A stretch of 64,000 bases of DNA from Sclerodactyla briareus (lineage: Eukaryota > Echinodermata > Holothuroidea > Dendrochirotida > Sclerodactylidae), in NCBI GenBank assembly GCA_026419785.1, contig JAODTK010004665.1, positions 171,775 through 235,774 on the forward strand, in the 5' to 3' direction. Position 1 is the stretch's first letter. Each line of letters opens with the position of its first letter. The translations under genes and the position numbers were made by a program. The notes beneath the pieces were generated by a model. That model did not search any database, was not told the DNA's origin, and saw only the letters and a list, made by a program, of their open reading frames with translations. Below, piece by piece: positions 33,423-64,000 of this stretch.

Positions 33423-33458
33423 GTCTGAATCGGAAGGAATATGGCAGTTGAAACTGCT
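33423..33458 (+). CDS. hormad1: HORMAD exon 1: 5' UTR end and start codon
   Basis: A pyrimidine-rich acceptor ending TTCTTAG at 33,422 precedes 18 nt of UTR. ATG follows at 33,441 and reads MAVETA up to a GTAAGA donor at 33,459. The exon ends in phase 0, which matches the next exon exactly. The short N-terminal leader before the HORMA domain fits the family. This is the only ATG that splices in frame to the HORMA exon. The presence of an acceptor implies at least one more 5' UTR exon upstream, which could not be located. Confidence 0.72.
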
Positions 33459-36400
33459 GTAAGACTCAAACTCAACTAATGCTGGACAGGTCTGTACAAA
33501 ATAATTTTCATGTAATATTTTACCCAACTTCACAACCCACCAGTCTTCCCGTTTAACATCTGAAGATCACCACTGAAAAATGAAACAAAAACTGCAAGTC
33601 AATACACATATAGGGGTTTTCCTCAAACTTGTGAGCTGAAAGTCCTGCAAGTGACTGATCAGCTTTACTGCAGTGCCTTGAACAAATTAATTTCATTGCT
33701 CCATCCTCCTTAGGTGCAAAATGGAGACCTGTGAAAATGTTGAGTACAACCTGCATTGTTTTATTTGACTTCTGCTATAATCTCTGGGATCGTCAGTGTG
33801 TACTGGATCGTGTGTGATATCGGTAAAGTGCTGTGGACAAACCTAATCGAATGCTGCAGTTCTTCTACACTTGTACAGTATAAGTACTCAGATATCATTA
33901 CACTTGCCAGCGATGACCAAACAATGTAGGATTGGCCAAATGGCAAGGGACCATGAGACTGCACTTCGGTAAGCTGCCCCAGGAAGATAACCTCAGGACA
34001 ATACCTCCAAGTTACTGTATCTGTGGTGTTAGTGTTACTGTGGTGCAAGTAGCCAGTATTTATTTAACATGCAGGACACCAGCATATGGTTGCTTAGACC
34101 CCTAAAAGTAGATGATCAACTTTGTTTTATTGGCAGAACATGGGCTCAAACTACTATCCATCTTGTTTGCAATCAGACCACCATGCTCTACAAATATCCA
34201 ACTAATCTTTAGTGTCAATTTCTGTGCCAGTGCTATAGTTTCGAACCATTCTAGTTGTTTATATATTATCTCATTCTTCTTCCAGTGGTCATCAATATTT
34301 CCATCAGAACAGATATCTGAGCAGCAGTCTGCCTTGTTCGTGAAGAAACTTCTAGCCGTTGGAGTCTCTACAATAACATACCTTAGGACATTTTTCCCTG
34401 AACATGGATTGGGGACAGGTGCTTGGAGGGTAAGGCTCGGTCCTTATCGAGGGGAAGGGGGGGGGGGCAAGAGGGTTTCCTAAAGGCTGCTTGTTCAACT
34501 CATGGATACTCAGTGGAATGAACTTACCGGGTAGTTAGGTATTTGTGAGACTGAGTGACGATTGTGAAAAAATCTGTTGAACAAGTGGTTAAGGCGTTGT
34601 TGCTAAACTTAGGTAGTAGGCAAGGCCACAGACCCTCAAAATATTTCAATTTGATTATGCCTTAATAATAGTCATGTGACTTATCCGGACTACGGTGTTT
34701 CTCTCACACCATTGTTTTTCAGAACAAAAGTCAAGCTGAGTGACCTACAATGATAAGGGCCTGTATATTTAGCACATCTTTATTAACTAGCATGTGGCTG
34801 CTAACTGGACTCTCTCCTGATAACAACTGTTGACATATCATATTCATTCAAAAGTTTCACATCCCGTTCAATGGTTGAATTAATCCACATGTATGTATGA
34901 AATATGGTGCTGCTCTGCTTAAGAAGGCATAAATTTATGATAGTTTGGTCACTCTAAGTACAATACAGTTGCAAAGGTGATTTACTGCGGAACTGAAGAA
35001 ATTGTTGTTTATTTTCTTACGATTATGCCTCATGTACTCTTCTACCTGTATGTGCTTCATCCAGACTAAGAAAATTCTCAGTTGAGTCTCCAAGGTTTGT
35101 GTGTGTAGAACAAATCAAATCTCCCCCTTCCCCTTTCAAAGAGTGCCTTTGATAATGTCGCAGAGGTGATAATTCCTGCTCCCGGACCATTATTAGAAGT
35201 TTGTCTGAAGGACATGGGGTGCAACTTCCTTCATGCAAGCCACTTTTTCCTAGGTGAGACAACAGTGGGGGTGAAAAGGGGTATCAATTTCGGTGCTAAG
35301 GTTTAAACCGGGGACCTGGAATTGCAGGCAGGCGTGTCACTGTTCTTGTTACCCGCCGGCAGTCCTTGTTCAGTGTTGCTGAACTTTTGCTGCTAAATCT
35401 TTTTCTCTAACAGATTTGAACCTCAAGATCCTGAGGGATGATAGCAGCTGCCCTGGTGCCTGTAGAGTCATCAAATGGATGAAAGGATGTTTTGACGCCT
35501 TGGACAAGAAATATGTAAGCTTTGAGTGATGGTAGAATTGTGAATTGGTTTGTGTGAGTCAGCGAGATTCCGTGCTATTGCTACAGGTATTTTTGTTTCA
35601 AATCTGCCTGCCCATTAACTTGTTGCATGTAACAGATTTGGTAATGGGATGACAGGGGACTCTTTTGCCGACTAGGTTCCAGTGTTGGATGGAAAAATGG
35701 ATGTCCTCGTGTCTATCCATACCTTGCAGTGTTGTTTTATGCAGTACGAGATGCGGGTCACCCCTTTATAGTATCGTTCGGGGACCACAGAATTTGGTCA
35801 GATTGAGAAACTGAGTATTTAGCAGTGTTTTTTTTTTTAACTTTGGGGAGCTTGAGTAATGGGTAATAGACATTTGTCAAATTTGTGAGTGTGACCATCA
35901 ACTGCCTTCTTAGTGATATGGCACTCTATCTTGGAACGGCCCCTACCCATTGTGTTTTGTCAGCACAAGGCTCGACCAGTTAGTGATGGTGTTGAAATGG
36001 CCTTGTAGAATGATTGCTTGCCCGGTGACGCTAGGACACAGATCCTACACTTTCTTTGTGACCTAGCACACTTGAACAACGTTCCATGCAGTTGCTGCAC
36101 CTACGGGTAACTTGAAGTCCTGTAACATTGCTGAATACTCTTTACAATGCATAAGTGTAGGCATGGGGGTGTTGCAAGGATACAACCACTGTCGTGGTCC
36201 TTGTGGAATATACAGTGTGGCTCTGATAATGATGCATGGAACCTGTGGTATCAAGGCCCAGGAATAGTATTAGGTTACCACGACCTATTGGTACAATTTA
36301 TGGCCATGCAATTAGGCATCCTGGCTTTGCCAATTTTTGATTAACCCAGTTTTGTGTGTTGGGTATGTCCTGCTGATATGTTTTTGGGAGTGGTGCCGCT

Positions 36401-39400
36401 ATTGCACTGGTTACACTTTTTGCAGTTGAAGAGCTATCCAGTCAATATAGGGAATCTGTGGTGTCAACTGATACCAAATCTTCATTCCGCTCCTTTATTT
36501 CACTCTCGTCTGTCAGATGTGATAGTGGACCTGACTCCCAATAGCAGATGGGGTATAACCTGGGGCACTACCGGTATACATGGATGTGCCCAGAAAATTC
36601 TGAGTACCGGGTGAAAACCTGGTCACAAATGGCAAGTGGAGCAACTCAACTGACAGCATTGTATGTAATTTAATGGAAAACAAGTGCCGGGTAAATTTGG
36701 CTAATATGTCATGAGTGCCAGTAAAATGCTTGAGTGCCGGGCGTTACCACCTGGTGCCGCCCGGCGTGGGCCATCTCAGTCCCCTTTAGGGGATTGCCAC
36801 ATGTCTAACTGAATGTTAATAACCCCAGATCGTGTAGTGATTCCTGCCCTGGTATGCAGATTATGGTGAAAATAATGTTCATCACATCACTTCTCGAAAT
36901 GCACTGAACATTGGAGCGGTGTGATGATTGTCATTCCATTCTTATTGTTCATTCAGATCTATTTTTAAGGGCCTGTTTTTTTGTTGGTATTGCAGTAAGA
37001 GTAGGTGCATTTCTAATCCCCAAATGGAGCGAACCACTACTAGCAGCCTATTCTGGCCTTTGGCCATTCTGACAAGGCCAACAACCGGTTCTACGTAGAA
37101 GAACTTGTGTTTACTTTATTTTGATGCATGATATGATTCTGTGCTTTCCTGCCTTTTCTTCCCTACAGCTGAAGCTCTGTAATTTGGGTGAAGTTTTGAC
37201 CTCTTGATATGCAGTCCTACAATGATACAATTTGAATCATGCACATCCAGTAGTTGTTCAGATGCTGACAGTTTATATGATTTTTTTTTTTTTTTTTTTT
37301 TTTTTAGCTCCAATGGTGACATGAGTAAGGGGAACCCATAATCGCCTAAATAAAAAGGCAACCCCCAAGCACAAGGAACTAAAAGAAAGAGGAAGATCCA
37401 GCTTTTTGATTCCTACTCTTGAACTCTGGAGGTCAAAATCAGGAGGAAATACAACATCCCGATGAAGCCTATTCATGGCACGCGAAGTGCGAGGAAAAAA
37501 GGACGAGCATAGTTTCGGGTGGCGATTAACGTGGAAGATGCAGCCGAAACGGGTGGCTGGAAGAAGAATAGCGAGTATGTGCGAGTAACCTCAAGTAAAG
37601 GAGGGACAGCATCCCCAAGCTCATAAGAACCATTACCATAAGTAAAACGGTAAAGGAGGCAAAGAGATGATGAACCATCTGCGGGTATGAGATTCAAGTT
37701 AGGAGGTAAGATGATCATCTTTGATGAGACGGATGGACTTTCTCTGGATACGATCAAGGACACTGAGAGAGGATAGCGAAGGCCCCACCCCCATATGGCC
37801 AACCATTTTCCATTAGGGAGCGAATTTGGGCGTTGTAAAGCAGAAGTAGCTGTTGTGGGGTGAAGTTTTTCCTTGTGCGAATAAGAAGCACAGCTTTCTA
37901 GAAGCATTAGTAGCGTTAGACTTGATATGGGGAGTTCCAGGACAGATTGTTGCTGATTTCCATACCAAGGGATATTAAGAGAAGAGGACTGAGGGGAGGA
38001 TCTGGTCAGCCATGAAAATAGATGGTGCATCAGCCATACGCGACCAGAAATCAGCAAGTCTGAGTTAGATGGTTGAAGTAAACCAGATTGCAGTGCCCCA
38101 GTTCAAACTAGAATGAGATCATTGTTCAGCTGATTGGCAACTAGGGAACGGTTGTAGATAAAATCGTTCCGCTACGGGGGCGAGGAAAGCACAGAGAGTG
38201 GGAAGGGTAGAATCATCAGCAAATGAGTGAATACTACAGGAGGTAGAGATAAGAAGATAATTGAAAAATGAGAAAGGTGTAGGAGAGAAAACACAACCTT
38301 GAGGAACCACCAGCATTGATACGGACGGTCTCGGAGAGAAGCACCATCAAACCCTAACCAGAGAGAGAGGGACGGTAAGAAAACTGGCAGTCCAAGAGGT
38401 GCGAAGGGGGATGAAACCAAATGAAGTTTTATTTGGCCAAGGCGTACGGAGTGCCAAACACAGGTCAAAGGCCTTAGGATAACAAAGCAATAGACACTTT
38501 CACCGAAAAACTCAAGGGCTTGGGCCAACTGATTGGTGACAAAAGATAGTAGGTCCCCATTAAATCGGGCCATGGCGGAAACCATACTGGTGGTCAACTG
38601 ATGAGAGAGTGAAACTCAAGAAAGTTCAAAACATGCTGTTTAATATAGTGTCCAGACACCGTTGGAGAGGACCGAGGTATGGCAATCGGCCTGTAAATTG
38701 GAGGGGTGGATTGGTCACCCTTTTTAGGTATGGGCAGACATGGTAGCATGTTCCACACAGAAGGGTAGCATCCCATAGAATAACAAAGGCGGTGAAGCTT
38801 GCTAAGGATGGCGCCAGTTCGGGGGCACACTCAGGAGGACTATAGGAGGAATGCAAGCAGGACCAGATGCTTTATTAATGTCTAATTTATTGAGTGTTTG
38901 GCGGACCATGCGAGTAGTGAAACAACATCCAAGATCGTTTCACAAAAGCTGGCAAAAGATGGAGGAGGGTGAGCATCGGGTTCATAGTGGAATTAGAAGA
39001 AATAGCTCGGCAAAGTATTAGCTTAGAGGTGGCATTTCCCAACTAGCCACAAGCCATCAGGTTGACCAGCGGGGGGGAATTTGGAAGACAGAGTTGGGAC
39101 ACAGATTTGGGCCGCGACCCAAATGAACGACTACCAGATGGGCAGGGTGAAAGTTTATTAGCCATTCGTGAAATGAAAGAATTTTTGCTCAATCGATATC
39201 TCAGAGCACACATTACGAGCAGTAACATAGGGTTGACGGGAATCAGGTGAGGAGAAGATAGCCCAAGCTCGCATTAAAGCGGTTCTTCTCCTGGGGACGT
39301 GCAGTAGTACATGATGGTTGAACCATGAAGGTGATGAAGAGGAGGCCTGATCTTAAAGTGTTGGGATAAAAGTGTCTTCTAAAAGAATAATTTACCGAAA

Positions 39401-42400: not shown

Positions 42401-45400
42401 GATGACTACATAAGTCCCATTGTTTTGGAGTCAACAGAGTTCAGGAAAGTATAAAAATCCTCGTTACCATGAAGTCTGGAATGTGTGGTCTGATCTAGTT
42501 GAAATTTGGTGATGGTAGCTTCTCATCAAGATTACACGAACACCATTGTTTTTGGTGTATAGTAGATTGAGAGTAATTTCTTATCGAAAATATGAAATTA
42601 GTGCAATATTCATATGTGAACATGATAACTCAATTCTGATGGATAGAGCTGATACTGGATAAGTGTGTTCCCCACAAATTGCATGAGCCTCATTGTTCTA
42701 AGTACGTACAGTCAGAGGTCAGCAGAGGTCAGAGGCGTCTGCATTGGCCAAATTATATGGACCTTTGGAATTTAGATCGAACCTTCCTAACTAAGGGCTT
42801 TGATCCCTCGTTATCTCTACAAATCAAATTCTTACTTTTGTTATTTGAACTGATATTACAATTCATTAACAAATTAATCTGTCCCCAACAGAAGAATCAT
42901 GTATTGCAGTGTTAAATAAAATAATGCTCATATTCTATTCTGGAATGTTTGTTTTTGTTTAGACTGTCATCGAGTCCTACACATTCAAGTTCTCATACAA
43001 ACCAGAATGGGCCGAGTGTAGATATATACAGGTTAGTAATATTCACTTGAAATCAAGAGAGTTTGCGAAGAGAGTAAAATTGGTTGCCCTGCCCCCCCCC
43101 CAATGATAAAAAATCAAAAGGTTCATGAGTTTGAATCGGGGGTACAGGTACACATCAGCCATATACTGTATTTAAAACTTGTTTGCTTGAAAGGGCTGCA
43201 AACATGTTTATTATGGTGTCAATAGCACCAGGTAACATTTTGAATGTGTGCTGTATGTTCTCTGAAAGAAAAAAAAAGCAGCAATGTTGAGAAACATTAA
43301 CATTATCTTCATTTGCAGCAAAGTTTGCACAAACCATGCATTTGTGAACTTTTTTGTAATCTTCAGGCAGCAAACTTCAATTACAGATTCTCATTTTCGT
43401 TTCATACAGGAATAAGAACAAAATAAGCGGAGCAACCTCAGAGCGGGAGACAAAGAAGGCGACCCTGCAACTGCTCCGTACAATAATTGTCCTGACACAG
43501 TCACTGAAGTTACTCCCTGATGAGGCCATGATGACCATGAAACTGCTGTACTATGATGAGGGTAAAGGCCCAGTCACTATGTAATGATATAACGCCAACC
43601 CGAAATAACAGAAAAATGTGTATCCAGTGATTAAAAAAATAATACAATCTGCACATCTATTTCTCTATAATTTATCACAATAACATGGCAAGTTGGCTCG
43701 TGCATGGAATATGGGGAATGCAAGTGCTAAAGTAAAACTGTAATATGGACATTCAGATGAACATGATTCCCCAATGATTCCACGCAACATTGTGACACAT
43801 TTATTCTTGAATTAGTCTCCTGCATATCAATGTCAGTTGACAGGATCTGTGCTGTCTGGACTGCAGTTCTCTTTCCCATTGCGGACACCAGGTACTCATC
43901 ACATTAGTTGGGGCACACCTTCAGCCAGAATTAAGTGGCGCGATATAAAGTTCACTCCCAGCCAACTTCCCCGATTACTCGGCAACCTGGCAACCAACTT
44001 GATTATCCCTGCCAGGAAACTAAATCGCCTTGCTTGGGATCTGAACTCAACACCGTTGGGTTCCAAGCATGATCACCAGACCACTGTACTACTTGCGGTA
44101 AAGATATCATGGCTGCATAAAAAGCTTCTTCACCATTCACTGGGTTTGATTGGTTCATGTCCCCACAGAAGGAGGAATGGAGTGACCAGAAGGATTTCTT
44201 TAATCTATATCATCTGTTATTTGTGGGACAATCCATAAGTGGGTAGCCTTAATTATGCCATTACAGAAGGTGGAATTGAGTGCAGAGTTAGTATTGTTTG
44301 AAGCACCATTATATAGTATGTTTGGTTGATATATCACTGAACATTATTGAATCATTCAGTCATACAGGAAAATAGTATTTGTTTATATTCTCTTGGTATT
44401 GCACAAAGCTTTCAAAGGTAACACTTAAAGGATATCACACATTACACAATTGACAGGTTAGGCCTAGTTATTATGACACACACTTGTACAACAAGTGACA
44501 TCGTGCCCACCCAATAGTGATTGTAAAAACACGATCAATTTGGTGAAAATGTTACCCTGTGAGCTCTGTTGTAATTTTTACCAACATTCATCTTCTTTCT
44601 TGACTGCTGTTTTCTGCTGTAGTGACTTCTACAACTGGGCAAATCAAGCTAAACAGTATCATGGGCGCTAAAATTTCAACTATCATGTTGACTTTACAAA
44701 GTATGCCATTGTGTAATAGACAATTCAAATTGAAATTCCTTAAAGTTTCGAACCAAACAGGATTTGTTCGCAATTTTGTATTGAATGATGAAAACGATAC
44801 TTTGGGGTAAAAAATCCTCAAAAAAAGACCAGGCATTAGCCAGTTTAAATGTTGTTATTCAAAAACACAAGTGAGCACTCAAACACATATATCCTGTTGA
44901 GTAGGTGGGGTATTATTAGGATAAACAACAAAATTTCATTCATATGTGTAGTAGTAAGCCAACGAACAAAGTCAGACCACTTGAATAGTAACGAAACTAA
45001 CAAAATTTTCAGTATTTTTTCCCTTACCTTTATATTGCTGTACCATTATAGGCATGAATTTTATACAATATTTTGCCAGTCCTACCTAGTGTAATAATGG
45101 ACAGAAAAAGAAAAAATGGAGAATTGTCAACTTACCCTATCAGGATAGCAATGTCTAAGACTGTAACGAAACTAACAATGTACGAAACTAACAAAAATTA
45201 GGGGTATGTAACGAAAAACTAACAATGGGCTGTAGTAGTGAAAGCATTCCACCAAGTTCAACAAAAAACCATACAACATGAGAGACAATGGATCCTAGTG
45301 TAGATCATTAGAAGAGGGGATGCTTTAAATATAGGTCAAAGGTGATCTGGAGGTAATTTGAGCCATTCCATGGAAATCACAGAATTCAAAATTAAGTGCA

Positions 45401-48400
45401 ATGATAGCCAAAAAATATTTACAGCCGAACCATGACCAATTGATTGAATACAAGTTATCAGAGATTGTCAATTTAAGATTATGTAGGCTTAATTTGGTGG
45501 TAAGGCTGATTCAAAATATAATGTGCATGCTATGGTAGGGAGGGGGGGGGTGCACACTGAAAGAATATCCATGATGCTAATTAAATTGGATGGACTGTGA
45601 AAGCATGAAAATGTTTTTGTTCAGTTAGCACATTGAATACACACTCGCGTAGTAATTTTTTCTGGATACTGTCATTCATTATGGCTTACCAGGTATGTGC
45701 CAGGGCAGTTTGGATTGCGAGGGGAGGGGTCGGGGGGTTTATTCAAAAGGTAGCCCTTTTGACAAGATGTACCTGGTAATCTCAGTCTGTGCCAATAAGT
45801 TGCTGAGATTGAAAGGAAAAGTTGAATGGTGCAGCAACTTTACCTTCCAAACAATCAGGTACAATGCCTACATTTTTATATACACCCTACAGTGTTTTGG
45901 GTTTTCCCATCGCATAGTGGTCAATCATAGAATGCGTGTAATGAGGGGTGGTTTCAAAGTGTAGTCGTCAAAGTAGGGCAATTCACCAAGTGAGAATTCC
46001 ATTCTTGCACAGGGAGTCAGCACAATTCTTCAGATATGCTCCTATAGTTAGCATCTTAGGCATGGGCTGAAGTGCCTCTGCTCATGTGTTGCAAGTACTG
46101 TAAAAGATACGACATGGACTGGGTGGTTTGGGAGGTGCCTTTATTTTCTTTAAATCGTTTCTATAGGTTACGTGGCCCATAACCAACAAACAGCATGGAT
46201 GCTATTCCTGTTGCATTAAATTTGTAGTTTATTCAATACTTTAATATGGAAACCTTACAGAGCTCTGTCAGACTTGCAAAACATTGAGTTATTGTTGTTT
46301 AGTGTCATTTCTAACTAGCTCAGTGTATTTTTAAAAACCCAGCAAGTTGCACTAACTATCAAGTGAATCTCAAACCATGAATACTACAATCCGCGTGATG
46401 AGCCAAAAAAATCAATATTCACCCCTAAAAAATGCAAATCAGGGAATTTTCAATGTTTCAAAGACATTTTCGTGAGTACCAATTGCTAATTCATAACCAA
46501 CTTTATCAGCTAAGCATACATGAATTAGCAATGGTATTCGAAATTTGAGTGCTCTATGAATTCCCCATACATGAAGCATGTTAATGAATCTGTAACGGAA
46601 ACGTACGAACAAAACTAACAAGATGTTTTCAGTTCTCATTGATCCTAACATCAACATGATATGTTTGGCCAATATTGATGTGTAATGGAGATGAGTAATT
46701 CACTTTCACTTATAAAAAATACCGTGCCATAGCACTTGTGGGTTGACGAGAATCTGATTAAACAGGAGTGGTAAAAAACCCATGAGATTTTTGCGTAACG
46801 AAACAACGAGGACAAAAGTAGTTTGATAGAGATCCACCAAGGATCCTCAAACTTTTGTGGTTGTTGTTGATGAATAGTATGGACCAAGGTTGTAGCAACA
46901 TTAAACATGCATATTTATTACACTATGACAATGTACAGGACCAAAGTTGAATGGTACAAAGCAGTAAATGTAACGACTAATGTGGAATTGCCAACTGGAT
47001 ATTTAGCATTCGAGAACTTGGGCAGTAACTAGAAGAATAAAGATGCTCAAGTTCACAACTATAACTTGAGAGCAGCTCTCCCTCTCTCTGCGTGGGTTGT
47101 ATTCTGAAGACGTATTCCGCAGCTCAGTAGCCCTTCCACCCTTCTTAACTGCCTAGAAGACTCATCAATAGTAGGCCATTATCAAATTACAGGCAGGTTT
47201 AAAAGCCCCAGGGATGAAAAACCATCTAATGCTTATACCACCTATATAGAATTTGGTTTTTTTTAGTAATTAACAAAATGAATTTTGTTCACTGTTACTT
47301 TACCTCAGTGACACCATCAGATTATGAACCGCCCAAGGTTTCCAGGCTGCCCCGTCAGATCATTTCCAAGTATTGAGGATGAACCTATGACATCAAAGTG
47401 GGAGATGTTTCAACTGTGAGTACCATATAAACTTATTCCATCCACATAAATGATGTCGTCGTGGAGCATCCTAAAGTAAACTGACAGGGTTGGTATGTTA
47501 TTTTACATCCAAAGTCCCGCCTCCCCGTTTTGGTATTTCTCATAATTTCACCCCCTACCCCCACCTTTTACAAAATGTGTTTTGTGATAGGACTGGGGGA
47601 AGCTGTCATGCTTCAGTTATGCGATGGTCATGGACATATAGGGCAGTTACAAAGGCTGTCTATCTAGGGATTTTGATATTTCTTCTCTGGTGATATTGGA
47701 ACCAGCAGGATATACTCAACTTTTAGTATCCTAAACACAGCTTTATAATAATAATATATATAATAAAAAAAATCTTGGTACTAATGTAGTGCGGCATTAC
47801 GTTACTGGCTTGTCAAGTAAGGGAGATTTAATGCATAAACATTTTCAGTTATCTTTATTGAATGACACATTTGAAATAGTGTTTCAGGTATCATTTTCAT
47901 AGATTTTGAATCATCTACCTTCTCAAAATTGTTACATCTCATGAAAATTCATGTGACATGAATAGTGCATGAATTTCATTTTGTATTTTGTATAAATTAG
48001 GACTTTCTGCAATATTGGCATTTTGTGACAAACTAGGAGGTCGGCAGAGTCTCTCTGTGTATAATGAGGCACATCGATAAGCACCTGGACCCGACCCAAT
48101 TCAAGGTGGCAATATAAAACCATTCAGGATACATGTTCTTCATTATTTCATGTATTCCACAACCTGAAATTGACAGGAGTCATGAAAATGGTTTCCTAAA
48201 ACTTGAAATGCCATATTTTCCTTTTCTGTGTGAAAGTATTCCTTCCACTATCGATGTGATCCATACAATACACAAGCTCCAGAAAATGTACTGGCAGTGA
48301 GTGAATCCAGTCTTTTAGTATGGATATATACTATGTGCATGTGCAAAAGTTGTAAGGTTTCCCATGTTAAAGGGAGAAATTCATGGGGAGCATAATTTTG

Positions 48401-54400: not shown

Positions 54401-57400
54401 GCATGGGGATCCCCAACTCACAACTTTTGAAGTACAATCACTTTGCAACGAAATGTTGATGAAATTAGGGTTTGAACTAATGGATACAGTTTTGCTTCCT
54501 CGACCCTGCACACAGTGACTTTTGGAAACCCTTTCCCTGCAATTTCTTTTTCCTAAGCCACTACATCTGATGGGCTGCTGTTGTACCACTCCAGAGGCTC
54601 CAAATGAAGAGGAATATCCGTTTTAAGTTCTCATGTGGATTTGGCTGAGGTAAGATTGATTCTTTTGCATGTGGGAAGTAAGACTTTCCTCTTCCCCCGT
54701 TAACCTGAAGACTGATCTGATTGCTTTGATTGTCCTCCCAAGTGACTCACTGTGGGTTTGAATCATGGAGTCATTATATCAACGGGAAAAGCAATGGACT
54801 GCGCTGTCTTGCCCAGATGAAAAGTGAATAGTCCGCATGTACTACATATAATTGTGCTCCTAGCGCAAGGTAGTAACTGACAATACTTCCATCCACAAGC
54901 TATCATTAGAATATGCAATAACATACTGGGATTTCGGAAGTAACATTTTCCCTCTCCCACGCAAAAACATATTGAGCACATGACACAATGTTTGTGTGTA
55001 TGATGCGAGGCAGTGCATAAGTCGAGTAGTATATGCGTGTTGTAGGAAACATACATATTACACATCGGAACCTGTTTAACAGTAGAAATTGGGACGCTGT
55101 ATGGGGCCTAATTATTGTCTTAACTCTTATCACGCGGGAGGCGGCTGCGCCACGCGCAATCGCGTCAGCAACGGGAGGGCGACTCAGCCGCCGGTGCAAA
55201 ACAGGCAATTCTAGGGATCCCCGCCTCATCTAGCTTCCAGCGAATCGGGGGCGTAGACCTCTTCTATAAATACGTAATCTGCACTCTGCACAAACAAAGA
55301 GCTGCTCCCATTGAAATTTTTCGAGAATATCGTGTGTGAAAACTTCAGAAGAAAGTCGGATTCGCATCTGCGGAAGAGGAGTTGATTGTAGGGCGCGATT
55401 AGAAAGCTGATGCCGATTCGGACACGAAAATGAAGACTTTGGGCAGGACAAGTGCAGAAGAAAGTGGTAATTCTAGTGGTAGCGATGAAGAGGCTAAGTT
55501 AGGCCTTCATCCGTTAGAGGGGCAGGTGGAAATGCGGATTAGGATGAAGGGACGGGAGTACGATTGTGGTTTGGCCCAATTTCATGGAACCGCATGGACC
55601 AAGAATACCTGATGTTGATTCGTCACTGCTGAAAGTTCAGTATTTAGTGGGGGAGGGGGTATAGAGGTAAAAGGGGTGGGAAGATAGCTGTGGTAACCAT
55701 ATGCTGTTGTGTGCCAACATCATCTATGGATTACCAAGCAAATTATAAAAAAAATGGTGAAACAATGATTACAACAATATGAGCACATCATCTCATATGA
55801 ACGAGGAGGTTCAATTTTATTTCAGTCTCATTAGCATATCATTTACATATAAAACAAGGAGGTTTTACGTTTCATGGATAGAATGCCATGGTAATTGATG
55901 CAATTTGTTATTCAACAACTTACATGAAGGTAATTTACAAAAGTTTTATCAGCACACGGGTGGATGTAGTGCATTTTTCCGAAATTATACGAATTTGCAT
56001 ATATTGGCAGAATTACAGATTTCATTACAAAAATTTCCGAAATAAATTTGTAATCCATAGAGCTATCCTTCTGAAATCTTTGCTGTTCAAAGTATGTTCA
56101 GCAATACTTGCAAATACTGTACAAGAAGAAAGACATTCAAACGGATATTGGTTTTTCCTGAAAATAGCCAGTTGCACACTGTTTTCCCATATATGTCGTT
56201 CAGCATGATAAGAGATAATAGTTGATTAACTGGACTTATTTAGTGCTTTTTCATTTGAGAATTAAAGAAACATATATATAATAACAGCCGAAAATGTGCT
56301 GAGAGGAGGATAGAATTACCTAACAAGTGTTTGCAGCTGTCCTCTTGAAGCTACAACAGATGCACACTTCGATCGAGAAAGTTCAGCATCAAAGTTGTGG
56401 GCTGTCGCCTGAAGCTTGTTTTCTTTCACGTGGGTGGGGCGGGCCACTCGCCTGGTACCTGTTTCCATGCACGCAGGCATGGTGGTGGCAGGTGCCGCAT
56501 TTTTAAACACAATCATGCACCTCTTCCCATTTTTAGTATGTATATGCACTTTACAAACGGTGTTGAATATATTTTTAATAGTTATATTATTTTATTATAA
56601 GCACCGCTGCATACTAGTTTTAAAAACCTAAACCTGGTGTTTTCATTTCGAGAACCTTTTTCCGAATGGTCAAGATAAGAGGCGCTTAAAAAATCTATTA
56701 AAACTTCACATTATTGACAGGTTTTGGAGATCTGATTACATAGACTTGACCCAATCAAGGGTTCAAACCTCAAAATGTGTTCACTAGGTTTGTCCTGGCC
56801 TCCAAAGAGGAAAAATTTGAGAGAAAATTTGTTAAGATATCATTACGAGTGTTGAAACAGTTATGAGTGTTGTTTGGAAATTGGAACATGACTTGATAAT
56901 AAGATTGTTCTCTACCGCGTGCATCAAAACACAGCTTATAAACATCACCTTGGTATCACACTTAGACTTCATCAGGTGAGATTATAGGTCTACTTCGCTC
57001 CTCAACCTCTCATACTTACACAATGCCCCCCTCTATTTAGCCTATTAGTCCCATTCTGGGACTGCAACTGGACCTAGCCTCTGCACGATATAGAGGCCCA
57101 GTGAATGTTGTCTATCTGTGCTATTAGCGGTCTGAGCTGATCCAGATTCCAGACAATGACTCATCATGTGATATGGGACTACTTGGGCTAAGAATGAGTC
57201 TCTATCATAGACTGGAGGCCTAATCATGCATGCTCTGATCATGATCAAACTTGATGCATTTGCTTCACTTGATGGGTACATACTATTGTTGAGGGGAGGG
57301 CTATTGAATTCTATAATAGTTGAGACACCCAGATGGTGGTGTTCAAGGAATTACTGAGCTGTTTTAGGCTGAATAGTGAAGTCCAGAGTCATAATTTCAT

Positions 57401-60400
57401 GAATACAGAACACCTCTTGAACACTTTTCTCAAAATTAAAATAATCTTTAACAGCTGCATTTGTAGTGAAGCAGCATTACACATCAAAGAATGAAGTGCT
57501 TCGTTAAATGGAAACTGCAACTATGAAGAGTCAGAACTGGAAAATGCTTTTCTGCATCAGCTTGGTTTCATAATCAGCAAAACAGGTCTTTTTATCAATC
57601 ATTGTAATCCTGAAACACGCCCAAAGACAAATATTGCTTTTTTCAGATAACAAGTTGTAATATACCAAGGTTATTCACTTCTTGCAAATAATGCTCGATA
57701 TTCGTTTATATATCCCAACAGGATGATGGCTTGATGATCAAGTGTGAGTTCTGTGTATTTGGCAGCAGCAGTCTGTTACAAGATCATGTCGGAGGAACAG
57801 GCTCCAAGCAAACATGTTTGCTATAACTGCAGGGAGGTAAGTGGGTGCAGTAGGTAGGGAGGGGCCTTTATCAAGGCCTTGCAGTTTGTTGCAAGAGTTG
57901 AATTTTTGTAAAATATAACCAAGCAGTACAGCAGTTTAAGGAGTTTCTGTCAGAGGTTTGTTGTATTCTGTAGGAACCTTAACTTTCTACTGGAGTAAGG
58001 GGTGGAATGGAGTTCTTTCCAGTGTGTAATTACCTAATGACCACTGTTACAATATCAGGTTTGCTCAGCAAAATACAACCTGCAGTGTTCTCCACTGGTC
58101 AACTTCTGTGGATCAATTGTGAATGCCAGCTTGGTGCGGCATTAAAATTGAGGTCATGTCACTGTTAGACAATATGCCCAATGTGAATTAGGAATGTGAA
58201 TATAGCTTTTTTTGACAACTGCGAGCCTTACTAATCACTGTCTACACTGAAGTCATCACATAATGGGTCATGAGAAAGCAATAATTCATACTTTTTCACT
58301 ATTTTTGTCATTTTTTTGTCCGGGTGATCTTTTGGTAAGCGGCACACTCTTTGTTCATGTGGTAAAGCCATTTTTCAAAACTGCTATGAGAACACAGAAC
58401 ATTTGACTACTCATGTGGAACTCCCCCTGTGTCTTAGGAACTTTTGTCTCCGAATCTCATTAGTCCCTGCAAAGGAAATGGGAGAACTTGAAAAATGTTG
58501 CCAGAGTGATAACTTGCAGGGAATAGGGCACAGTGCTTTTGGTATTTTATGATAAATTGTGCATATCTTCACAACTACAACAAAATTATGTCAGAGTTTG
58601 CTGGCAGAACGTGCTACAATACAATCATAGATCTACTTAAGATACTGCAGAGGCTCACAACACGATTGTATGCACCACTCCTCTCCGGCAGTCCTCCCAT
58701 GGGGACTTCTATGCTCCCTCTTCAACAGAGACTACTATGCTCCTCCTACCACGGGGACTACTATGCTCCCTCTTTCCCCCGCCCACAGGGACATTGTGCT
58801 TCCCCTCCCGCAGGACCTATGCTCACCCTCCACTCCGGCATGGACTACTATGTTCCACCTCCCCTGGGAGGGGAGGTGAAGCAAAGAAGTTCTTGTGGTG
58901 GGAAGAGGGGGCATATAGTCTCCGTAGGAGGGGAGGGGGATCATAGAAGTCCCTGTGGGTGGGAAGTGGGAGCATATCAGTCCCTGTAGAGATCGATCGG
59001 ATGCATCAATGCAAGTGATGGTTGTCAGCCAACAAGAGGCAAGTTGTATACCATTCCAATATTAATTGACAATACTCCCCTTGAACTAGTGAAAGAGCAT
59101 CCCTATCTTGGAGTGACCATCACTTCAAAGCTCTGATGGTCAACTCATATAAACAATGAAGTGGTAGAGCTTGCAAGATCCTCAATTGATCCGTAGACTC
59201 TGTATGACTGTGATACTAAACGAAAGACATTGCTTATGAGTCTCTGGTTCGTTTCTGTTTAGAATATAGCTCCTCGGTTTGGGGTCCATACAAAGCTTGT
59301 AAAATTAGGGGCTGGAAATGGTTTAGCACAAGCTGCCAGATTTGTTTGCAAGGATCACCGCCAGTCAACGAATGTCGCAAGGCTCCTGCAACATCTTGCC
59401 TGACCTACTTTACAGGAGAAGGTGCATGCAAGACTCAAGCTGTTTCATATTATATCAACGACATATTGGCTTAACTGGTTTCTGATTTCGTGGAGTTACA
59501 AACTAACTATAGCAAATGACCATATTGTTATTACCAACGTCTTCGGTTGGTCATTTTGGCCCAGAACCATTCCAGATTGGAATGCATCTAGTCTCACTAT
59601 GCGGAATCCATGGTCTCCGTGGGTGTTTTCTGGTGATGGTGAAAATTCTTTATCATCATCTCCAACTCTTGACTCTTTAATAAGCTTGTGTCTGTTTGTG
59701 CTGTCCCCTATCAGTGATAACCACTAGTTGGTGTTTGCATAGTACCAGACAAGACAGGCGGGGGGGAAGCATAAACGTTTTGGCGGGAGGAGTCCCAGCA
59801 GCTCGGATTGAAGAGGGAAAACAACCAATTTTGGCTATGATCAGACATTGTCGACAAAGCTTTAGAACCCTACAGGAGACTGAAGAAACATGAAGACAAA
59901 ATAGGTAAGGTTACTCACTGGGGTCATGCTGTGACTTGTTTATATATCATGCATAAATTTGGTCTATCTTGCGCTGGGAGTCTAGCCATTGCCATAACAT
60001 GTCGGAAGCTTGATGGTAGCCTGTGTTAGTAGATTTGTAGATGATACCCGATGGATTTCTAAGACTCGTTACCTACCCTACTATCTTTCGTCCAGTGGCA
60101 ATGTGGACAAATCATTTCCATTTCCTGCCTTTCCATATACATCTCTAATTTTCTTACATAACATTACTAGAACTTTCTACTTGGTACATGCTCACAGAAA
60201 GCAACGTCAGACTTCCCAGTGACCGATCCTTACCTGTCTGAGCTAAAACCAGCTGTCGCCACAGCAACCTGTCTCTGGAGACGAGCACTGATAGCAGCTA
60301 CAGAATTCACTAAGATTCAGGTAATTAATTTCTCAATATTAATCTAGTTTTTCATGTGCTGGTCTAGGTGATAGCCTGCTTATTTGGATGGTCCCATGGA

Positions 60401-62852
60401 ACGGGAATAATGCCAATTGCCCCAGGAGCAGTTAGAGAGAGCATGGACCATGCACAGTCCCCGCTGGTCCCATGAGGCAACCCATGTCAAATTGGGGAAC
60501 TGGATACAAAATTGATGTTCTAGCATATGCACTATGACTGACTGATAACAGCTGAAGAAGTATTCCTGGATATTAGGGTATGCAATTTAAATACCAGGTA
60601 TTCAATGTGCATGGGCAAGCAAACATGTGTTGAACTTGGCATTAAGAAAGGTGGTATGGTGCTGTGTCAATTGCAGTCATCGTACCACATTTTAACTTCA
60701 TCACTGCCACCTGGCTACTTGCTACCTGAATATTCAAAATGCACCAAAGAAAATGAAAGAATGAAAATAATAAAAAAATTTGATTACTTTCACATCAAAC
60801 TTGGATCCAGAGTTCAACTCCAGATGAGTCATACTGGAGACTTGGTGTAGGATGTGGATTATTGTGTGTCATTTATGGAAGAAGCAATAAGAAAAGTGCT
60901 TTTGAATCCACAAAGTTAAATGTTTGGGGTGTGCTGGTTGTGCAAAAGAAACATTGCTAGCTAAAACCTATTGAACTTCCATCCGGGCCGTTAGAATGCT
61001 GCCGAGCTCCTAAAATGACATTTATGACAGCATCGCATATTGCAGTTCACCAGACAGGTTTAGAGAAAATTATGGGAGCTGTTAACACCCCTCAGTGAAG
61101 CAACTTCGAACCCCTAAACACAGCAAGAAAGCCTATACTCGAAGAGTGCCCTTGGACGTCCACTGAAGGCGCCATCCAAGGCAGTCAATGCCAAGCAAAA
61201 GATACTTGGGTGTGGTGGATGCAAGTGTCCGCAACCATGAAGATGATGTTAGAGGAAGCAACACTGGTCCACAATCTATGCTGCTAGGGACGTTACTGAA
61301 TGGAAATCGTGATGGAATATGAAGACAAGTGTGCGGTTATTTCCAATGATTACATGAACAAGGTTAATGTCGGGAGACTTGCTTTCAGCCACTACAGCCA
61401 GATCAAGAGAATGGTATCCAGCCTAACGATGGTCGAATGTGCCAGATCACAACTTTCCTCTTGGGGAATCATGGAACATTGCAGTTGAGAGTCCTCAGCA
61501 GTTATTATTATTTCCGACACGACTTTTCGAAAGATTGAAGCTAGATGTGCTTTGCACGACGACCTACGGACAAGGTCAGTCAGCTTTGAACCTGATAGAA
61601 ACACCTCTGGGCACGATTGTCAAAGCTGACCTCTGTTTACTCTACCCAGCATGCCGTTTAACCAGACGCGCCACTGTCACAGACGCCCGGGTTATCCGAG
61701 AAAGACGTCGTCAGAAATAGCACTTGTGTTTGACGTTGCCATAGAGCCAAGCTACTGGCAGAGTACTAGAGTGGCACATCCTCCAATAGCTCAGGTTGTA
61801 TATAAATTTTGACCACGCGTCAGTGGACGCTGGAAAACTATGGGAGTGTCGGTGAGGAAGTAAAGTCAGCAACCAGGAAGGCATTGAAGAGACCAACGAT
61901 CCATTACTAGAGGAGATCAACTTTGTGAGGAGCTACTGTGTTCGAGAACTGGGTGAAGATCACCATCAGAATAGGTATAAGTGGACATGTAGCTACTCCC
62001 AGAAGGGTCCTGTCAGTCATGTCTTTGACTCGGACGTTATGGGATCACAGCGGATGCGCAATATGTGCTGGATCCGCCCTCTTCAAGTCAAGAAGACAAG
62101 TGATGGCCACTACATGACATACATGGAGACTATGAAGGCATTTTCCTGCACTCCAGCAGATGAGGGGGTGGCCTGGGTCAATGTGCGGTGACAGGATGTT
62201 GTTGCGTGTTCACTGGTAAGAAGGATATGTTACAATGCAGCGAGCTTTCCCACTAGGGAGCTTTAGGTTCAGGAATAGCCAGGATTAACTGTTCTATTGT
62301 AAGCTCTATTGTCTTTGCTGATGATGGGCATAATAGACAATCGGAGGTCCCTAATGGCGTGTTTCAATGAGAAGCTTCAGAGCCCTCTGTTGTCGCTGTC
62401 CATAGGTCTCGAATGGTTAGGGCCTAATATGAGTCGAAACGACTCGGCTCCACAGCTGTAATGTCACTCAGAATATCGATTGATTGTAATAGTTAATCGC
62501 TGGCCTGTAGACCTGCAGAAAAAAAAGATTGGATGGCTTCCTCAAAGGCAATTTGACAAATACGTGTAGGCCATTGCAAATTATTTAATTCACGGAAATG
62601 TGCAAAATTCATACAGAACCACCTGCAAATTTGATTTTGTAATGTTGTTTGTGGTCATGAGAGATCCCATGCATGTATGCGCAGTCAGTATCATCCACTG
62701 TGTCAGTGCCAGATGAGAGAAATTCCCGCTGAAGTTAAATCTAAAAGTTAAAAATCATTGCTCTATTTTTAATAGGTGCCAGCCGTTCGCCAACGGATCA
62801 GTGTGGAGGTGACTGTATCCATGAGGGCTCATCAATCGACTGGAGAGTGAGG
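33441..62852 (+). CDS. hormad1: HORMAD-family meiotic chromosome-axis protein with PHD finger and winged-helix-like region (partial, 3' end outside)
   Basis: Spliced gene assembled by eye from 15 exons. Known HORMAD/Hop1 proteins sit on the unsynapsed meiotic chromosome axis, promote double-strand breaks and homologue pairing, and are removed by TRIP13/Pch2. The HORMA domain is recognised from blocks shared with vertebrate HORMAD1: [76 protein letters not shown] and KVGDVST. After an acidic Q/E-rich linker comes a PHD-type finger (KCEFC, CYKIM, CYNC), then a helical block ending in INRLESE, which fits the PHD plus winged-helix chromatin-binding region known from Hop1 relatives. Mammalian HORMAD1 lacks a recognisable PHD finger. 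Exon phases agree throughout if the indels noted in exons 8-15 are allowed. The 5' UTR exon(s), the first half of the PHD finger, the C-terminus and the polyA site were not found. It could equally be named hormad2 or hop1. Confidence 0.88.
34286..34418 (+). CDS. hormad1: HORMAD exon 2: N-terminal HORMA domain
   Basis: Acceptor TTCTTCCAG at 34,285; donor CAG|GTGCTT at 34,419. The 133 nt give 44 codons plus one base: [14 protein letters not shown], then [28 protein letters not shown]. This is the most family-typical part of the gene and has no indels. A second possible donor (AGG|GTAAGG at 34,431) would add four residues, the number by which this protein is shorter than vertebrate HORMAD1 here, but its phase does not fit the next exon. 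Confidence 0.92.
35275..35355 (-). mobile_element. Possible SINE remnant
   Basis: Minus-strand CCGGTTTAAACCTTAGCACC resembles a box B (GGTTTAAACC) but lacks a convincing box A. It lies just upstream of the exon at 35,414. Confidence 0.25.
35414..35514 (+). CDS. hormad1: HORMAD exon 3: HORMA domain core
   Basis: Acceptor TTTTCTCTAACAG, donor TAT|GTAAGC. The 101 nt are 2 + 33 codons, so with the preceding G they read [19 protein letters not shown] and [15 protein letters not shown]. The CPG and IKWM..C.DAL..KY positions are family-conserved. No indels. Confidence 0.93.
37169..37187 (+). CDS. hormad1: HORMAD exon 4: 19-nt microexon
   Basis: The 19 nt CTGAAGCTCTGTAATTTGG sit between a strong acceptor (TTTTCTTCCCTACAG) and a GTGAAG donor. 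They encode LKLCNL plus one base, and the split codon becomes Ala with the next exon. This supplies exactly the seven residues (LKLCNLA, compared with LRMVVLA in vertebrate HORMAD1) otherwise missing between KKY and HVNSDDPD. Its donor lies 93 nt before the poly(T) end of an antisense LINE. Found by phase and homology, so it is well supported despite its size. Confidence 0.8.
37281..40250 (-). mobile_element. Antisense LINE (CR1/jockey-group non-LTR retrotransposon), frame-broken
   Basis: Read on the minus strand it shows endonuclease-like sequence near 39,900-40,080 ([17 protein letters not shown]). The reverse transcriptase block follows: IPKKGDQS and YRPIAI near 38,690-38,740, the [15 protein letters not shown] motif near 38,270-38,310, and the catalytic FADDSTL near 38,200-38,220. 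The C-terminal region runs to 37,473 and 3' sequence to a poly(A) tail (the T run at 37,281-37,306). Many frameshifts split the ORF. The 5' limit is approximate. It sits in the intron between the 19-nt and 26-nt HORMAD microexons, opposite to the gene. Confidence 0.85.
41368..41393 (+). CDS. hormad1: HORMAD exon 5: 26-nt microexon
   Basis: Acceptor TTTCTCTTCCTATCCAG, donor GAT|GTGAGT. The 26 nt (2 + 8 codons) read HVNSDDPD after the split Ala codon, which aligns with VYTNPEDPQ of vertebrate HORMAD1. It ends in phase 0. The intron before it contains the ~3 kb antisense LINE. Confidence 0.85.
41640..42730. repeat. Tandem array of ~290-nt AT-rich repeat
   Basis: The start phrase TTGTAAACATGATAA (variants) recurs near 41,646, 41,740, 41,963, 42,324 and 42,612. 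It is followed by AGCTCATACT, GTGTGTTCCCC and CCCATTGTTTTGG.GTCA...AGGTCA. Some units are truncated. A dispersed relative is at about 30,390-30,480. Confidence 0.65.
42963..43031 (+). CDS. hormad1: HORMAD exon 6: central HORMA strand
   Basis: Acceptor TTGTTTTTGTTTAG, donor CAG|GTTAGT. The 69 nt are 23 codons in phase 0, reading [18 protein letters not shown] then CRYIQ. The SYTFKFSY core corresponds to the ECYQFKFKY strand of vertebrate HORMAD1. This is the last exon with an intact frame. Confidence 0.92.
43410..43561 (+). CDS. hormad1: HORMAD exon 7: C-terminal half of HORMA core (frame broken at the start)
   Basis: Acceptor CATACAG at 43,409, donor GAGG|GTAAAG. From base 2 it reads [50 protein letters not shown]. 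The TKKAT and MTMKL.YYDE positions are strongly HORMAD-like. The previous exon ends in phase 0, so the first bases GAATAAG would give a stop. Two bases seem to be missing from an A run near position 2, after which length and phase agree (154 nt, ending in phase 1). An alternative acceptor at 43,386 would restore phase, but would add an implausible hydrophobic insertion. Confidence 0.86.
43840..44100 (-). mobile_element. tRNA-like SINE head, antisense
   Basis: On the minus strand a box A-like AGTGGTCTGGTGATCATGC (44,085-44,067) is followed by a box B-like GAGTTCAGATCCC (44,049-44,037), tRNA-like spacing. The long open frame on the + strand here is a shadow of this repeat. The left limit is uncertain. 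Confidence 0.5.
44985..46625 (+). repeat. Cluster of the short motif AACGAAACTAACA
   Basis: GTAACGAAACTAACAA or close variants occur near 44,989, 45,163, 45,183, 45,210 and 46,600 in otherwise AT-rich intron sequence. Function unknown. Confidence 0.45.
47309..47415 (+). CDS. hormad1: HORMAD exon 8: HORMA domain end region with three 1-nt losses
   Basis: Acceptor TTTACCTCAG, donor ACT|GTGAGT. The first frame reads [10 protein letters not shown]. The second, after one missing base near CCCAAGG, reads [10 protein letters not shown]. The third, after one missing base near CATTTCC, reads PSIEDEPM. The fourth, after a missing T following ATG, returns to the first frame with IKVGDVST. The pieces in order align end to end with the VTPPDYQPP...EGEPMYLNVGEVST region of vertebrate HORMAD1. 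Two of the three losses are in homopolymers. Splice sites are intact. Confidence 0.82.
48533..48921 (+). mobile_element. tRNA-derived SINE
   Basis: The head is tRNA-like: box A ATTAGCTCAGTCGGTAGAGC at 48,544-48,563 and box B GAGTTCGGAGCCC at 48,586-48,598. A ~250-nt body follows, with the tail GCGCTTTGAGCC...AAAAAGCGCTGTATAAGCAC and an AT-rich end. That tail resembles L2/CR1 LINE 3' ends, so a LINE of that type may mobilise it. It lies in the intron between the exon-8 and 11-nt exons. Confidence 0.8.
49328..49338 (+). CDS. hormad1: HORMAD exon 9: 11-nt microexon
   Basis: CAATTCCACAC lies between TTTTTTTGTCCCAACAG and GTGAGT. It encodes QFH plus two bases of the next codon, continuing KVGDVST as vertebrate HORMAD1 continues VGEVSTPFH. 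The phase (0 in, 2 out) fits both neighbours. It is very short, so support rests on the strong splice signals and position. Confidence 0.68.
49878..50029 (+). CDS. hormad1: HORMAD exon 10: end of HORMA domain and acidic linker (two 1-nt losses)
   Basis: Acceptor AATTTACAAG, donor CTG|GTTGGT. It begins TVK. After a lost G in a GG run it reads VRMKTDKK, and after a lost A in an A run it reads [20 protein letters not shown] then [21 protein letters not shown]. With both bases restored the exon is 154 nt and ends in phase 0. The charged low-complexity linker is what is expected between the HORMA domain and the chromatin-binding region. Confidence 0.78.
50880..51560 (+). mobile_element. 5'-truncated LINE fragment, same family as 37-40 kb
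   Basis: The C-terminal RT region and 3' end are recognisable: [30 protein letters not shown], then [20 protein letters not shown] and [19 protein letters not shown]. These match the corresponding [19 protein letters not shown] and [10 protein letters not shown] stretches of the antisense LINE. It sits on the gene strand in the intron after the acidic-linker exon. The 3' limit is approximate. Confidence 0.75.
52000..55240. other. HORMAD intron sequence, no exon recognised
   Basis: Should contain, or lie near, the missing exon for the first half of the PHD finger. A short exon with a CxC or CPCG motif was sought and not found. A 103-residue minus-strand frame at 52,148-52,459 has no supporting features. 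Confidence 0.35.
53237..53274. repeat. Poly-C tract
   Basis: Almost pure C with single T interruptions; similar C tracts occur at 3,130-3,143 and 14,861-14,874. A run of prolines in the overlapping open frame is an artefact. Confidence 0.9.
55245..55680 (+). other. GC-richer coding-like block with TATA-like box, unidentified
   Basis: TATAAATA at 55,265-55,272 is followed by several open stretches. One frame from an AG at 55,346 reads [17 protein letters not shown], a stop, then [33 protein letters not shown] and [20 protein letters not shown]. Another reads [20 protein letters not shown] from 55,584. It is acidic and serine-rich. It could be a retroelement start, an alternative first exon, or a fragment of another gene. 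It lies in a HORMAD intron. Confidence 0.3.
57722..57836 (+). CDS. hormad1: HORMAD exon: second part of a PHD-type zinc finger (two 1-nt losses)
   Basis: Acceptor TATCCCAACAG, donor GAG|GTAAGT. Frame 1 reads [13 protein letters not shown]. After a lost T (expected TTTTGG) comes WQ, and after a second lost base [15 protein letters not shown] then HVCYNCRE. Allowing two missing bases gives exactly 39 codons. Visible metal ligands are the CxxC of CEFC, the Cys of VCY and the CxxC of CYNC. The His after WQ falls on the broken codon. The upstream exon with the first Cys pair was not found between 50,030 and 57,721. Confidence 0.78.
58690..58985. repeat. Inverted minisatellite
   Basis: Forward units of ~31-33 nt (GGGGACTACTATGCTCCCTC and variants) occur about six times to 58,855. 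They are followed by reverse-complement units (GAGGGGGATCATAGAAGTCCC, GGGAGCATATCAGTCCC) to 58,985. It lies in a HORMAD intron. Confidence 0.75.
59040..59720 (+). mobile_element. LINE fragment (L2/CR1/Rex-like RT C-terminus)
   Basis: Broken frames contain [51 protein letters not shown], then [10 protein letters not shown]. This is the standard order at the C-terminus of L2/CR1-type reverse transcriptases. It is of a different family from the 37-40 kb LINE. It ends about 20-30 bp before the tentative HORMAD linker exon. Confidence 0.8.
59743..59904 (+). CDS. hormad1: HORMAD exon (tentative): basic linker after the PHD finger
   Basis: Bounded by acceptor TTTGCATAG and donor ATAG|GTAAGG. Phase in (0) and out (1) match the PHD exon and the next exon if about one base is missing. 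It starts [21 protein letters not shown] stop in that frame is followed by a different open frame that ends [17 protein letters not shown]. It lies directly after a LINE fragment and contains a run of seven G. No family motif was recognised in it. Confidence 0.45.
60220..60320 (+). CDS. hormad1: HORMAD exon: start of winged-helix-like region
   Basis: Acceptor GACTTCCCAG, donor CAG|GTAATT. The 101 nt are 2 + 33 codons with no indel: [20 protein letters not shown] then [13 protein letters not shown]. The helical pattern (LWRRAL..) and its position after a PHD finger fit the first helices of the Hop1-type winged-helix domain. That assignment is by position and pattern, not by a verified alignment. 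Confidence 0.72.
60970..62191 (+). other. Coding-like block in several frames, unidentified (possible retrocopy or transposon gene)
   Basis: Open pieces follow each other on the + strand: [108 protein letters not shown]-like [40 protein letters not shown] and [20 protein letters not shown], ending VAWVNVR and a stop at 62,191. No internal splice pattern is evident. It sits between two HORMAD exons that appear contiguous in the protein, so it is probably an intronless insertion. Family unknown. Confidence 0.4.
62776..62852 (+). CDS. hormad1: HORMAD exon: winged-helix-like recognition segment (two bases missing)
   Basis: Acceptor CTATTTTTAATAG, donor GAGG|GTATGT. The first frame reads [16 protein letters not shown]. 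After a break at ATGAGGG the second reads GLINRLESE. With two restored bases it is 26 codons plus one base. The V.V..M.GLINRLE..G pattern resembles a winged-helix recognition helix. This is the last exon seen; it ends in phase 1, so the gene continues past 64,000 or into an exon not recognised in the last 1.1 kb. Confidence 0.62.
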
Positions 62853-62859
62853 GTATGTT

Positions 62860-64000
62860 GGAAAAGCAACCAAGTGAAAGAGGTATGGATAATAAGTTGC
62901 TAGCAATTACATGGTCTATACATCCATGGAAAATAGTGAGCTGAATGGCAGGCTAAGATCACAGTTTGGATGCTAGTGCAATATCCACTAGGTATATCTG
63001 TCCACCCCCCTTCACCTTCTCCAGGATCCTCTCCCAGACCAACTTCTTGAACTTTTCATGGCCCTTCTTAACATTTGATAGGTTACATAGAGAAGAAAAA
63101 TTGCGCACTTCGCTGATTATTTTGATGGCAGCCAAAATTACAGCCAAATAGAGGGAATTCCAGATATGCCATGAGAAAAAATAATTTGGCAAAATTGGAG
63201 ACAATCATGTGGCCTGATCCTGTGATCAAGTAGGACTTATGCTCCATAATGGGAGGATTTCCACAATTTTCAAAAAAGGTTTGTGGAGGAAGGCCAATTT
63301 TTAGAAGCGATTAACCTGTTTGATGAGGAAGACTGGATGGGTCTTGAGAAGCTCTCTTGATAATACCCCAATTGTTGAACGTCCGAGTGATTGCAGGGCC
63401 CTTGAATCACCTGGTTTGTTTCCAAAGACGGGGGGCACCTCCAAAGCCTGTCAGCGCGTTAAACTCCGTTCTCCCAGACGGATGTTTAGTCTGGGATCGC
63501 AGTGATTGTTGTGGAATGTATCTCTCAACCAGCTCCGGAGATATTGGGAGCTTCAATCATGCAGGAATCCTAAAACCCTAATGAACCCCACTGCATATAA
63601 GCATATGTTGATGTGTGGTTAAACATCATCGGATGATAGCATATTTCAAAGACATGTCAACTGATACAATGAATCGATAAAGAAGTATCAACGCAGAACG
63701 TATGCAAAAAATCACATTCAGTGTAAATCAGGCTCAGTTCTAGTTTGTCTGATGGCCGAACACCACATTTCGACAAAACTAAAGTTTTGTCTAATCCAAT
63801 AAGGAATATTGTGTGTGTGAAAAGAAGATGAGGATCTAAACACCTCAATAAACACATAATAAAATTGTGCATGTTGTCACAATAGTCATGTGTGGTTGCA
63901 ATTACTTGTTGTGCGTGGGAGGGGTTGTAGAGACTAGGTGAACAACTTCGGTTGCACTGCCCGAAAGTGATCTGTACGTGTGTGAGTTGCAATTTGTTAG
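62860..64000. other. No exon recognised at the right edge
   Basis: Open frames at 62,959-63,204 and 63,657-63,992 on the minus strand lack recognisable motifs. The next HORMAD exon was not found here. Confidence 0.35.

Follow-up and report, generated by a model that had tools for sequence, protein, structure and literature searches.

The window, by which is meant the whole 64,000-base stretch analysed, comprises the final 64,000 bases of its contig (contig end at 64000) and harbours nine candidate exons on the plus strand between 33441 and 62882, which encode a HORMA domain, most of a PHD finger and a winged helix, in that order (Table 1). The exon model was extended in both directions from two Pfam HORMA matches, with exon borders set by us at AG/GT; because exon ends were placed there by the analyst, these borders are only partly independent evidence. 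With frame breaks set aside, splice phases match at seven of the eight exon joins, the eighth (47415 to 57722) being outside that count. Among the phase-matching joins, that from 35514 to 42963 spans a missing exon, and that at 34.4 kb uses the weaker-looking of two donors, as the alternative GTAAGG from 34430 looks stronger, yet is one base out of phase with the next exon. The donor following 62882 is in phase 1, and the gene is therefore expected to continue; nothing was recognised by eye as its continuation in the last 1.1 kb. On the basis of order, phase and known protein architecture, the HORMA, PHD and winged-helix exons are read as parts of one gene.

Table 1. Candidate exons of the HORMAD gene, with positions numbered within the window
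Feature	Coordinates	Strand	Description
Candidate first coding exon	33441..33458	+	ATG, MAVETA, GTAAGA donor, phase 0; proposed from sequence alone; least secure piece of the model
HORMA exon	34286..34418	+	44 residues; ends in phase 1; part of joined Pfam HORMA and 8j69_A matches
HORMA exon	35414..35514	+	(D) + 33 residues; frame intact; Pfam HORMA match
HORMA exon	42963..43031	+	12 residues, a single frame break, then 10 residues in the following frame
HORMA exon	43410..43561	+	50 residues; frame intact; Pfam HORMA match
HORMA exon	47309..47415	+	35 residues across shifting frames; at least three frame breaks
PHD exon	57722..57836	+	11 residues, WQ and 23 residues in three different frames; two frame breaks; 9myp_A match
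Winged-helix exon 1	60198..60320	+	41 residues; frame intact; 9myp_A match
Winged-helix exon 2	62776..62882	+	16 residues, then 19 shifted by one frame; a single frame break; donor GTATGG in phase 1

Pfam returned nothing convincing for seven neighbouring open frames or for two shorter stretches elsewhere in the window. A GC skew of up to 0.18 extends across 4 kb inside a HORMA intron (36001–40000), where two minus-strand open frames (37473–38057 and 38172–38597) match no Pfam family; this segment is perhaps a mobile element. Two short tandem arrays, with units of 26 and 31 bases, occupy 58704–58989 within a 146-codon open frame that has no Pfam match and is probably not a gene. Adjacent to these, at approximately 58990–59160 in the intron that follows the PHD exon, are short open frames (one of 18 residues, followed by SWSDH in another frame) reminiscent of fragments of a non-LTR retrotransposon reverse transcriptase; the 18-residue piece has no Pfam match.

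The HORMA domain and its copy number

The joined HORMA exons, with X inserted for the missing exon and at most of the breaks, match the Pfam HORMA family (PF02301) at E = 3.7e-45 and 154.4 bits (cut-off 24), covering model positions 1–206 of 209, and two of the exons exceed the cut-off individually. The best of two PDB matches at E ≤ 0.01 is HORMAD1 (8j69_A, E = 6.6e-41), a structure of the human protein, and the other is a HORMA domain-containing protein (8cxk_A, E = 0.0039). MAD2 and REV7, structures of which are present in the PDB, are absent from the matches at this threshold. The exon at 47309–47415 came from a match to VTPSDYEPP in a search for missing parts, and lengthens the HORMAD1 alignment from VTPSDYEPP through VGDVST (E = 1.5e-16 jointly with the preceding exon). 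Two further parts were sought, with and without tolerance of frame shifts, and in both cases scores fell within or below the shuffled range: the small HORMA exon, corresponding to LRMVVLAVYTNPEDPQ in 8j69, and the sequence following VGDVST, for which the query was the human stretch after VST.

With regard to copy number, Pfam HORMA at E ≤ 0.001 produced only two matches across the assembly (319 Mb in 3171 contigs; three candidates scored), at 35386–35517 and 43402–43569, both in the window. The PHD exon and the winged-helix exon at 60198–60320 each match the assembly once (E ≤ 1), such that no copy of the HORMA, PHD or winged-helix sequences was seen beyond this locus at these thresholds. RNA polymerase Rpb2 has no match in the assembly and CCT has four; the assembly thus looks incomplete, and the lone HORMA, PHD and winged-helix matches therefore do not prove a single-copy gene.

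The PHD finger and the winged helix

Of seven PDB matches to the PHD exon at E ≤ 1 (X at the break), 9myp_A ranks first (E = 2.8e-9) and 9mug_A second (E = 2.6e-6); against Pfam PHD_5 the exon scores 25.3, with the cut-off at 27. These two structures are the chromatin-binding regions (CBRs) of Hop1 from the sea star Patiria miniata (9MYP; XP_038051536.1) and from the blood fluke Schistosoma mansoni (9MUG), respectively (PMC12365614). According to the portion of that source used here, as throughout, the PHD of the holozoan CBR has eight zinc ligands, arranged as C-x-C, CxxC, HxxC and CxxC. Five are present in the window's PHD exon (CEFC, the cysteine of AVC, and CYNC), the histidine codon is disrupted, and neither a donor-anchored pattern search nor a guessed-motif search returned a convincing match for the exon containing C-x-C, the first zinc pair. 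From the second cysteine of CEFC to the cysteine of AVC there are 19 bases, compared to 21 in relatives, and its two breaks together shorten the exon by a net two bases relative to the spacing in relatives. Within the DDGLMI motif, D and M are in frame; a W codon can be read only in a different frame, between the broken halves. These three residues putatively correspond to positions of the H3K4 pocket, defined as W at position I, M or L at position II, a small hydrophobic residue at position III and, most often, D at position IV (PMC12365614, in part).

The two winged-helix exons, joined with the base at the break skipped, align without gaps over 65 residues with 9myp_A, the higher-ranking of the two PDB matches at E ≤ 1 (E = 6.9e-20); the other is 9mug_A (E = 0.0003). 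The exon at 62776–62882 alone, with X at the break, finds 9myp_A (E = 0.021) and no other match at E ≤ 10. No credible Pfam match was obtained for the winged helix.

Several of these results bear on a preliminary description of this DNA. Its central proposal, of HORMA, PHD and winged-helix sequences in one gene, is mostly correct, as are its family and domain assignments: HORMA, PHD and the joined winged helix match HORMAD counterparts far beyond chance (8j69_A and 9myp_A). The matching splice phases it described hold for seven joins; the breaks inside four exons had been overlooked. As to the zinc ligands whose spacing it saw, the CEFC, AVC and CYNC cysteines are present, whereas the histidine codon is disrupted and the C-x-C exon was not found; the 11-residue segment and CYNCRE, given there as a single reading, lie in different frames. 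Of the three domains for which it suggested an HMM search, HORMA passes its Pfam cut-off, PHD_5 stays below its own and the winged helix has no credible family match.

Frame breaks and the control genes of the assembly

By eye, at least seven frame breaks are distributed over four of the nine exons (Table 1); the other five read unbroken, one of these being only six codons long. As a control for assembly noise, conserved genes from elsewhere in this assembly were considered, namely HSP70 (14 matches) and CCT (four matches). Two of the HSP70 matches were without a locus, and the remaining 16 loci yielded 15 translated stretches, as L012 falls inside the stretch of L011. At least six of the 15 (L010, L011, L014, L015, L016 and L017, judged by eye) shift frame within a conserved exon, and an open-looking control exon can conceal compensating breaks. 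The CCT-eta exon, L017, exits and regains its frame, yet aligns ungapped to CCT eta (3iyg_H, E = 6.1e-15, with X at the breaks). Comparison of HSP70 exons with one another, again by eye, reveals approximately six single-base gaps in ~270 bases between L005 and L011, and approximately six single-base gaps plus one three-base gap in ~245 bases between L006 and L016; the remaining two of the four aligned exon pairs contain such gaps too.

This control comprises few genes, and CCT eta, represented by one exon, is its cleaner component because the HSP70 copies may include pseudogenes. As similar breaks are present in the HSP70 and CCT-eta exons, those of the HORMAD gene are read as assembly noise rather than as the marks of a dead gene. 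We conclude that indel noise in the assembly suffices to account for the HORMAD frame breaks, and that the animal itself probably carries an intact gene. More broadly, frame breaks in conserved exons of this assembly should not be taken as biology without a noise control.

Relationship to known HORMADs and proposed function

From the domain order, the homology, the AG/GT exon ends and the comparable breaks in control genes, all directly observed, the locus is, with a probability of about 0.88, the 5′ and central part of an invertebrate meiotic HORMAD gene (Hop1/HORMAD1 family). Its PHD-wHTH CBR would belong to the known holozoan type, the gene being probably intact and its breaks stemming from an indel-rich assembly. 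It is quite unlikely that we are instead looking at a decaying pseudogene of a PHD-wHTH HORMAD, in which the breaks would be real mutations in the animal. Such decay would be in keeping with breaks in four of nine exons and with the several expected exons that were not found; however, no stop codon was seen by eye that a frame break could not explain and that would call for a substitution, AG/GT is still found at the exon ends, and the conserved PHD and winged-helix residues are retained. The same kind of break also occurs in control genes of the assembly, with CCT eta, the cleaner control, contributing one exon to that comparison.

A very unlikely variant would have the PHD truly lacking both its first zinc pair and its zinc histidine, leaving a degenerate histone reader fused to a winged helix that still binds DNA; were this so, the lineage would stand as an intermediate between the animal HORMADs that have a CBR and those that lack one. 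Least probable is an arrangement of two adjacent genes, one a HORMA-only HORMAD stopping before 57 kb and the other a separate PHD-wHTH gene. The approximately 10 kb from 47415 to 57722 that contain no identified exon would allow for it, and CBR-only proteins without HORMA are described for Encephalitozoon (PMC10907721, in the part cited here). Against this, the CBR matches those of HORMADs best, not other PHD proteins, and both strand and order are as in known HORMADs.

A single HORMAD gene with a PHD-wHTH CBR, as favoured here, has precedent. The cited part of PMC10907721 surveys 149 HORMADs, 107 of which possess a CBR, this being some combination of PHD and wHTH; 36 opisthokont HORMADs have PHD-wHTH with no clear HTH-C; Strongylocentrotus and Nematostella are among the examples given, and loss of the CBR is inferred for vertebrates and chromadorean nematodes. 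Crystal structures of CBRs, DNA binding by the winged helix and bipartite nucleosome binding are reported in PMC12365614, where PHD binding of H3K4me3 is a prediction; there, too, the animal-type CBR is described as having a lysine pocket that is conserved and a wHTH that binds DNA in the canonical way.

Amongst individual proteins, Patiria miniata Hop1 is closest by its CBR, sharing the PHD-wHTH order, the DDGLMI motif, CxxC and 38 of 65 winged-helix residues; the window differs in a broken frame, for which assembly noise is the most likely cause, and in that its PHD histidine codon and first-zinc-pair exon are unreadable. The CBR of Schistosoma mansoni Hop1 is the same module and ranks second among the PDB matches for the PHD as well as the winged helix, but is further removed, with identity at 19 of 64 winged-helix residues. 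HORMAD1 (8J69) shares the HORMA domain, whilst mammalian HORMADs are without a CBR according to the cited part of PMC10907721, which agrees with the earlier statement that they do not show a chromatin-binding region. Saccharomyces cerevisiae Hop1 likewise has a HORMA domain followed by PHD and winged helix, but additionally has HTH-C, and binds bent nucleosomal DNA via a non-canonical PHD/wHTH surface, its PHD lysine pocket being poorly conserved (PMC12365614, in part). The suggestion that axis loading may be nucleosome-directed 'as in yeast' was consequently too specific, as the sequence is closest to the animal type. From the sequence comparison, the nearest mechanism would be holozoan, not yeast, because the putative pocket D and M are in frame, with the W codon in another frame.

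If the gene acts as its family would predict, the HORMA domain would bind the closure motifs carried by axis core proteins, and may help bring in the double-strand-break machinery, the PHD would grip the H3 tail and the winged helix would hold DNA. Acting together, PHD and winged helix would tether the protein to nucleosomes along the meiotic chromosome axis, with a possible preference for H3K4me3 chromatin. PHD-winged helix HORMADs have already been published for many animals, and the gene here is a further example of that described type. It would add one more invertebrate whose meiotic axis retains a module that reads chromatin, which fits the published loss of this module in vertebrates.
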